Below are positions 11,073 through 12,214 of a stretch of DNA of 12,214 nucleotides, one piece after another. The DNA comes from Fibrobacter sp. (lineage in GTDB: Bacteria > Fibrobacterota > Fibrobacteria > Fibrobacterales > Fibrobacteraceae). The stretch is from the NCBI GenBank assembly GCA_017550445.1, contig JAFZOV010000156.1, positions 1 to 12,214 of the forward strand, given 5' to 3'. Every line of letters starts with the position of its first letter. The first letter of the stretch is position 1. The notes below the pieces were generated by a model. It worked only from the letters and a program-made list of their open reading frames with translations. It did not search any database and was not told where the DNA came from. A program made the translations under genes and the position numbers.

Positions 11073-12214
11073 ATGGACCAGAAAGAAATTGACCGCACCC
11101 GTTATTTTGAGTTAAAGAAACAACTGGAAGAAGCAAGCCGCCTTTACTACAAAGATGGTGTTTCGCCGATGAGCGACCAGGATTTCGACTTCGGGCTCAA
11201 GGAGATGGAAGCTCTCGAAGCAAAGTATCCGGAGCTGCGCGGCAAAGATTCCCTGACCCAGCGTGTAGGCAGCGACCTCACTAACGATTTTGCGAAGGTC
11301 ACGCACGCCGTGCCCATGCTCAGCATTGCAAACGTGTACAGCGCCGAAGAAATGGCGGAGTTTGTGAAAGCTGCTGAAGACGGAATTGCTAGTTTAGACG
11401 AGAGAACGGACCTTCGGTCCTACAGACTAGAGACGAGAGAAGATAATTCTACTAAAAATAATCTCTCGTCTTTCGTCTCTCGTCTTTCGTCTAAAAAATG
11501 GATCTGCGAGCGGAAAATCGACGGCGTGAGTCTTTCGATTGTGTATGAAAACGGCCGCTTGAGGCAAGCGGCAACCCGTGGCGATGGCGTACAGGGCGAT
11601 GACGTGACCTTGAATGCGCTTACCATTGCAGACATTCCGGAAACCTTGGACGCCAAGAAGCTGAAGATCGACCCGAGCGAAATCCCGCAGGGCACCTTCG
11701 AAGTCCGCGGCGAAGTTTACATGGAACGCGAAGCTTTCGAGCGTCTGAATGAGCAGTTTATTCTAGAAGGCAAGAAGATCTTCCAGAACCCGCGCAATAC
11801 CGTATCGGGGTCACTCAAGCTCAAGAGCGTGGCCGAATGCAAGACGCGCCCGATGCGATTCTTTGCCTACCACATTCCGCAGAGCAACAACAAAACTCAC
11901 GAAGAGAACCTGCAGCAACTCAAGCGCCTCGGTTTCCATACGAACGATTACTGGAAGGCCGATACGGTCGACGAAATCATGAAGATTTCCGAAGACATCG
12001 GTGCTAGCCGCGACAACCTCCCCTTCGAAATTGACGGCATGGTCGTAAAGCTGAACGACCTTGCCATGCAGCGCGAACTCGGCACCACAAGCAAAAGCCC
12101 GCGCTGGGCCATCGCCTACAAGTTCAAGGCCGAGCGCGAGCAGACACGCCTCCGGGAGGTGACCTACCAGGTGGGGCGCACGGGTGCCGTCACCCCCGTT
12201 GCCAACATGGAACC
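11073..12214 (+). CDS. ligA: NAD-dependent DNA ligase LigA (3' end cut), with in-frame repeat insertion
   Basis: The essential ligase that seals nicks in replication and repair using NAD+. The first 380 residues are present. The Ia domain reads YYKDGVSPMSDQDFDFGLKEM; MLSIANVYSAEEM is the conserved lead-in; CERKIDG holds the AMP-accepting Lys148; then GDGVQGDDVT, FEVRGEVYM, NPRNTVSGSL, EIDGMVVKL and SPRWAIAYKFKAE (nucleotidyltransferase motifs), and the OB-fold begins with GRTGAVTPVANMEP at the window end. Between Ia and the KxDG motif, residues about 107-141 (LDERTDLRSYRLE to SSFVSRLSSK) are extra: the catalytic Lys lies about 33 positions later than in E. coli LigA (Lys115). These residues are encoded by the palindromic repeat at 11393-11495, read through without a stop. 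All catalytic motifs are intact, so the enzyme is presumably functional. Confidence 0.94.
   Translation, partial: MDQKEIDRTRYFELKKQLEEASRLYYKDGVSPMSDQDFDFGLKEMEALEAKYPELRGKDSLTQRVGSDLTNDFAKVTHAVPMLSIANVYSAEEMAEFVKAAEDGIASLDERTDLRSYRLETREDNSTKNNLSSFVSRLSSKKWICERKIDGVSLSIVYENGRLRQAATRGDGVQGDDVTLNALTIADIPETLDAKKLKIDPSEIPQGTFEVRGEVYMEREAFERLNEQFILEGKKIFQNPRNTVSGSLKLKSVAECKTRPMRFFAYHIPQSNNKTHEENLQQLKRLGFHTNDYWKADTVDEIMKISEDIGASRDNLPFEIDGMVVKLNDLAMQRELGTTSKSPRWAIAYKFKAEREQTRLREVTYQVGRTGAVTPVANME
11393..11495 (+). mobile_element. GACGARAG palindromic element, copy 2, inside ligA
   Basis: About 102 bp bounded by inverted ends TTTAGACGA (from 11393) and TCGTCTAAA (to 11495). The left part, 11395-11440, is homologous to 9122-9167 (minus strand) and contains the hairpin GGACC-TTC-GGTCC (11408-11420). 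The right part holds two perfect 14-bp direct repeats, CTCGTCTTTCGTCT at 11465-11478 and 11479-11492, complementary to the left arm, so the whole insert can fold into one large branched stem. Its length is close to a multiple of three, and no stop occurs in the ligA frame. Confidence 0.8.

Follow-up and report, generated by a model that had tools for sequence, protein, structure and literature searches.

In Fibrobacter the NAD-dependent DNA ligase LigA is, judged by its sequences, an otherwise conserved essential enzyme with a hypervariable loop. Within the stretch analysed here (the window, 12,214 nt of Fibrobacter sp. DNA), this loop holds a 99-nt palindromic repeat, which we call element A. 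A copy of element A very probably entered a permissive LigA loop in its sole open frame, where it is likely to be translated and neutral, and other repeat families followed it to the same place. What carries this reading was observed directly: the position of the insert, its identity as a repeat, the covariation of its hairpin, the variability of the loop and the recurrence of the repeat in other genes. The host gene, the insert with its parts, and a second copy in the window are as follows.

11073-12214, plus strand: ligA, NAD-dependent DNA ligase, 5' part, continuing beyond the window (DNA_ligase_aden, 8.9e-77, Pfam; matches to PDB 2owo/4glx)
11395-11493, plus strand: element A, 99-nt palindromic repeat in frame in ligA (TAGACGA...TCGTCTA; LigA residues about 108-141)
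11395-11405, plus strand: outer arm, 5' side, pairing with 11483-11493 in the predicted fold
11408-11420, plus strand: internal hairpin GGACC-TTC-GGTCC, with covariation across copies
11424-11478, plus strand: second stem-loop of the predicted fold, 11424-11440 with 11462-11478, enclosing the variable centre
11483-11493, plus strand: outer arm, 3' side, in the predicted fold
9118-9167, minus strand: intergenic partial copy of element A, 50 nt, 82% complementary to the insert, hairpin row aligned

A sequence-only reading of the window had proposed an in-frame palindromic repeat with inverted ends in ligA at 11393..11495. Both sequence and predicted fold bear out the repeat and its inverted ends, and its limits are corrected by 2 nt inwards on each side. 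Element A has inverted ends, composed of 7-nt GACGARA-like units, together with an internal hairpin and a centre that varies between copies. A 20-nt arm motif, allowing up to 3 mismatches, occurs five times in the window against 0.01 expected, four times in the insert and once in the intergenic copy. The predicted plus-strand RNA fold (-41.7 kcal/mol, z = -4.5, with 0 of 200 shuffles as good) has a three-way shape, in which the terminal inverted repeats form an 11-bp outer stem that encloses the internal hairpin and the second stem; the minus-strand fold gives z -3.2. As had been proposed, the ligA frame runs open through the insert (...SLDERTDLRSYRLETREDNSTKNNLSSFVSRLSSKKWICERKIDG), and the other five frames contain stops. 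Such strong predicted hairpins in the message could suit an intron or intein excised from the mRNA or protein, or a segment that is bypassed. We consider this highly improbable: the segment has no Rfam match at gathering score, none of the 42 ligA loci read has its frame interrupted within the loop, and 99 nt is far too short for any known self-splicing intron or intein. Translation as part of LigA is the reading we retain.

Within the protein, numbered from the ATG at 11073 (the alternative start is a TTG at 11064), the alignment to E. coli LigA (2owo) breaks at residue 107 (E. coli 104) and restarts at residue 142 (E. coli 109). Thus, 34 residues (108-141) stand in place of four in E. coli, in keeping with the 33-34 added residues first estimated ahead of KxDG. 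The Pfam domains Nlig-Ia (under Pfam's own cut-off) and DNA_ligase_aden flank the insert, one on each side. The catalytic motifs were said to be left intact, and they are: KIDG follows downstream of the insert, and the adenylation domain with its KxDG is intact in the window, as it is at a second locus (L018). The six best ligA relatives, from Fibrobacter or Fibrobacterales, are 87-93% identical. An AlphaFold model of LigA, built on 25 sequences, places pLDDT below 50 at residues 112-139 (and also at residues 65-87, outside the insert), with block means of 87-90 just C-terminal, which fits a disordered loop. The insert is most likely a flexible, functionally neutral and translated loop of LigA, and we infer that it is exposed.

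Element A is a dispersed repeat that sits both between and within conserved ORFs of Fibrobacter. The homologous intergenic copy claimed earlier was recovered at 9118-9167. The nearest genome compared (G001, with 30% of sampled words in common with the window) matches element A in 17 places at E <= 0.01 (best 1.9e-13), and matches at E <= 0.001 occur in 56 of 61 Fibrobacter genomes, including 27 of the 30 good ones; copy numbers are lower bounds, since 14 candidates were scored wherever more than 14 were found. Absence of the element from the rest of the genome, which had been named as grounds for abandoning the idea, is thus contradicted. Full copies measure 70-127 nt (by a pattern allowing 67-127 nt). 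Hairpins gathered by their flanks alone gave 40 distinct sequences, from which an alignment was made of the 27 shortest hairpins. The stem pairs in 135 of 135 cells of this alignment, stem changes are two-sided in 27 instances versus 7.5 in shuffles and at most 5 in slid frames, and the covariation score is 0.58 versus 0.12. Five covariation measures were computed, and two of them, those for pairs with two-sided changes and for further pair types, are not above shuffles, 67 and 73 of 500 of which reach them. Among the 13 longer hairpins outside the alignment, eight have a full stem, one has a mismatch and four lack a full stem. Pairing and covariation together indicate that the stem-loop is mostly retained even as its sequence changes. 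GTA precedes the internal hairpin on the minus strand, and GTAG spans its edge; this GTAG tag (CTACAG) is present in 24 of the 27 rows.

Several observations concern the surroundings of element A. The ORF at 9165-9575 (minus strand) ends in a TAG (9167-9165) formed by the first three bases of the intergenic copy, and the same letters are out of phase in ligA. Terminal TAGs of the element close a frame of at least 100 codons at 3 of 21 ends versus 843 of 16968 other TAGs; by sequence, their use as stop codons is suggestive only. At three loci (L154, L160, L164) element A immediately precedes genes that read as dnaX-, pheS- and tonB-like, where a role in the mRNA leader is possible; these DnaX-, PheS- and TonB-like matches were rejected as coding insertions because the element is upstream of the probable start codon. 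Plasmid and phage collections gave no match to element A. The hairpin pattern appears near the end of one IMG/VR contig (L341:194-225), which may be host DNA.

The site of the insert in LigA is variable to an extent that a single insertion does not describe. We drew on the best 120 of 475 listed Fibrobacter LigA proteins, the query itself being type A, that is, carrying element A. The 118 that could be parsed hold 81 distinct loop sequences of 11-77 residues (the shortest, of 11, in P0075), and the remaining two are type A; conservation of the segment in all relatives, which would have spoken against an insertion, is not what is seen. Across 42 ligA loci (window included) there are 39 distinct loop sequences, and type A occurs in four. 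The expectation that most relatives would lack the segment is correct for this particular insert and wrong for extra residues as such: NVY and KxDG lie 28-82 residues apart in these loci, whereas eight loci of other families in the phylum have 27-33, a range that 40 of the 42 exceed. Nor is this one insertion of one family, as the earlier reading had it, because the LigA site is filled by several. Other repeats can be read in many loops (...DPS..LRSAQDD..., ...IPGQAGND..., ...VIASEAKQS..., ...VIPATSHHVIPATSHH...), together with composites. When 35 distinct loops of at least 45 nt were compared with 1.2 Mb sampled from three genomes, 23 had at least one copy and 19 had at least three; the three equal-length control segments of ligA had at least one copy in 1, 0 and 1 of 35 and at least three in none. 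The other 12 loops have no copy in these samples, so a repeat origin is not established for some loops. Two loops are multicopy in their own genomes, one with at least 30 matches including itself (G017, 40 of 79 candidates scored) and one with at least 41 (G007, 40 of 113 candidates scored). An assembly or frame artefact could be suspected here, given that many relatives are metagenome assemblies and that one ligA (G016) is broken by a change of frame ahead of the loop, perhaps an assembly error. However, the type A insert recurs in 34 of the 121 rows of the protein tree and inserts are present in named strains such as Fibrobacter sp. UWB2, UWB4 and UWB12, and we give an artefact almost no weight against genuine insertions.

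The sequence-only reading had also pointed to other ORFs as places where the element might be found, and it is there. A search with the insert peptide gave matches in 29 of 61 genomes, with stops in the LDERT frame in many copies; in eight genomes the matches span a stop codon. Whole copies of element A, in the same LDERT frame as in ligA, lie in RsgA (L151, L177) and in a fusion of CbiX with a siroheme-synthase N-terminal domain (the CbiX/CysG fusion; L150, L155-L157). Their hairpin stems differ from each other and from that in LigA, and they therefore look like separate insertions. Parts of the element or repeat are found in TilS, HrpA and an RlmL-like methyltransferase (identified by reading), and a LysE-type exporter contains a repeat peptide. 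Among the best 30 aligned loci for each gene, taken from 58, 58 and 54 genomes with a match, TilS has three hypervariable sites, RsgA has one and the CbiX/CysG fusion has two, and not every one of these loops, here or in other genes, is established as repeat-derived. Both flanks of the variable site are conserved in 12 aligned RsgA proteins, with nearly all residues invariant; the RsgA structure model (mean pLDDT 43.8) is uninformative. An indel survey of 247 ortholog pairs from three 400-kb samples returned 32 inserts of at least 8 residues, most without copies elsewhere; of these, we take the inserts in TilS, in the RlmL-like gene and in LigA (a tandem unit with one match elsewhere) to come from repeats. 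Ordinary tandem-repeat proteins, also returned by the protein self-comparison, were left out of the count. Degenerate CATTCCACATTTCACATTCCACATC-type repeats lie between genes of the window at 5341-5368 and 9089-9116, and their family seemingly corresponds to a peptide inside TilS of one genome (G031; FDVECEMWNEKEITTHYAPHITHF, by reading).

Turnover at the LigA site is rapid. Protein pairs with at least 99% identity outside the loop number 113 (pairs not independent), and in 22 of them (19%) the loops are dissimilar, meaning less than half alike by string ratio, and among 635 pairs that are 97-99% identical outside the loop the share is 39%. On a quick tree of 121 loop-free LigA proteins, with families labelled by our own motif rules, the loop family changes at least 30 times, 10 of these for type A. 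Two loci (L030 and L128) are 95.6% identical in their flanking DNA and have loop regions of 105 versus 27 nt. Within 40 ligA loci, a set with identical duplicates (L046/L142, L044/L049, L036/L053), inspection by eye of the 22 closest pairs gave no clean case of an empty site with a target duplication. Divisibility of loop length by three was withdrawn as evidence, since the loops were cut by translated motifs and the property is true by construction.

Two other accounts of this turnover were weighed. The loops may have spread between strains as ligA alleles underwent ordinary homologous recombination, with fresh insertions being rare and old: type A LigA loops have a common ligA-specific centre (STKDN and variants), as if from one spreading insertion, and label changes on the tree do not separate gain from exchange. 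We regard this as quite possible, if somewhat short of probable, and allele exchange may account for part of the turnover. However, several families and composites occupy the LigA site, and TilS, RsgA and the CbiX/CysG fusion likewise have variable sites, so that many separate insertion or rearrangement events are still required. The loop could also be adaptive, its diversity selected, for example, to evade a LigA-binding factor or to tune the ligase, in line with a turnover faster than that of the rest of the protein. This appears very unlikely, because the same pattern occurs in the unrelated TilS, RsgA and CbiX/CysG fusion, the segment is modelled with low confidence, and proteins with loops as short as that of P0075 exist.

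We return to repeated insertion into a permissive loop. A Fibrobacter palindromic repeat would insert into the LigA segment that links domain Ia to the adenylation domain, in one open frame, and only in-frame, open copies in tolerant loops would survive. Because the site tolerates extra residues, other repeat families would also have landed there, and as long as the frame stayed open the repeats may have become nested, slipped or been lost by recombination. Later turnover would take place through recombination and slippage among dispersed copies, with a hypervariable loop within a conserved essential ligase the presumed outcome. The suggestion that the repeat family is able to evolve coding sequence gains support as an interpretation from the in-frame copies in several genes and their variable loops. 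More tentatively, and without going as far as calling it probable, we suggest that a small set of fixed permissive sites in housekeeping enzymes (LigA with one, TilS with three, RsgA with one and the CbiX/CysG fusion with two) continually swap unrelated palindromic families in frame through recombination of dispersed copies. The loops would then outpace species divergence, in a genome-wide diversification of loops and not as scattered selfish insertions.

No dedicated transposase was found for element A in searches of the RAYT and Y1 transposase families. RAYT family NF047646 scored over its cut-off in 0 of 61 genomes and below it in 17. PF01797 was found in 4 of 10 genomes, with proteins of 157-162 aa in three that are IS200-like by reading. 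The element A hairpin is near two of the five PF01797 loci (L330, L331), beside murA-like and argC-like genes (names by reading); with these neighbours and the RAYT result, a RAYT/REPtron was rejected as the general mover.

Two further features of the window were recorded. A 63-nt exact duplicate covers most of tRNA-Pro(TGG), at 2968-3030 and 3217-3279; the second copy is truncated, lies beside the intact gene, scores 32 bits with Rfam tRNA and is not called by ARAGORN. A GGATTGCTTCGTCG...CTCGCAATGACG stretch at about 10437-10480, which we take to resemble a repeat of other bacteria, is just upstream of a membrane protein gene, presumably mntP-like.

Fibrobacter is a gut bacterium and is not known as an intracellular endosymbiont, and here dispersed non-coding repeats supply essential genes with raw material for protein sequence. 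The 81 LigA loops provide enough natural variants to measure how insertions start, shrink and recombine, and LigA, TilS and RsgA together offer a natural experiment in how well loops tolerate change. The finding also accounts for odd peptides in Fibrobacter proteins that resemble repeats. Literature searches for Fibrobacter palindromic or in-frame repeats, hairpin repeat elements and ligase repeats, and for hypervariable LigA loops and in-frame palindromic repeats in general, gave no such Fibrobacter report among the matches listed, with subscription papers mostly outside them.

Three known systems bear comparison. First, Rickettsia palindromic elements (RPE) of about 150 bp lie in frame in unrelated genes and are predicted to be compatible with function, according to the accessible part of the source (PMC10969869). 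RPE and element A alike are palindromic repeats between and inside ORFs, in frame in several unrelated genes; the phyla are unrelated, and the likeness described here is one of behaviour. Protein-coding palindromes of Wolbachia appear in the reference list of PMC3733652. Unlike these and RPE, the Fibrobacter repeats have a site common to several families, with loops that differ between nearly identical proteins. Second, MITEs and ERIC-like elements are likewise short and non-autonomous, with inverted ends and sometimes in-frame fusions; unlike MITEs, element A has no parent transposon (RAYT and Y1 families searched) or target duplication that we found. Third, GTAG- and CGTC-tagged REPs were reported in 2013 within ORFs of many species, with numerous copies in genes for DNA synthesis and repair; the accessible text includes terminal TAGs serving as stop codons, a same-site case in recB of Xanthomonas and an in-frame REP in an O. 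terrae DNA ligase gene (PMC3733652). The case is thus not the first outside Rickettsia. The word Fibrobacter is absent from the text of PMC3733652. GTAG REPs, as described in that accessible text, and element A have in common a GTAG-tagged hairpin, intragenic copies including one in a DNA ligase and a terminal TAG stop. However, a GTAG REP unit is 20-40 bp and has an associated RAYT in the genome, whereas element A, a compound structure about 100 nt long whose 7-nt arms are repeated, exceeds such a unit throughout its size range and lies in genomes with no RAYT over cut-off. The site in LigA also shows far more variation than any single site of the GTAG REPs in the accessible part of PMC3733652. 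As far as we have found, the principle is known, and the new part is fast multi-family turnover at fixed sites.
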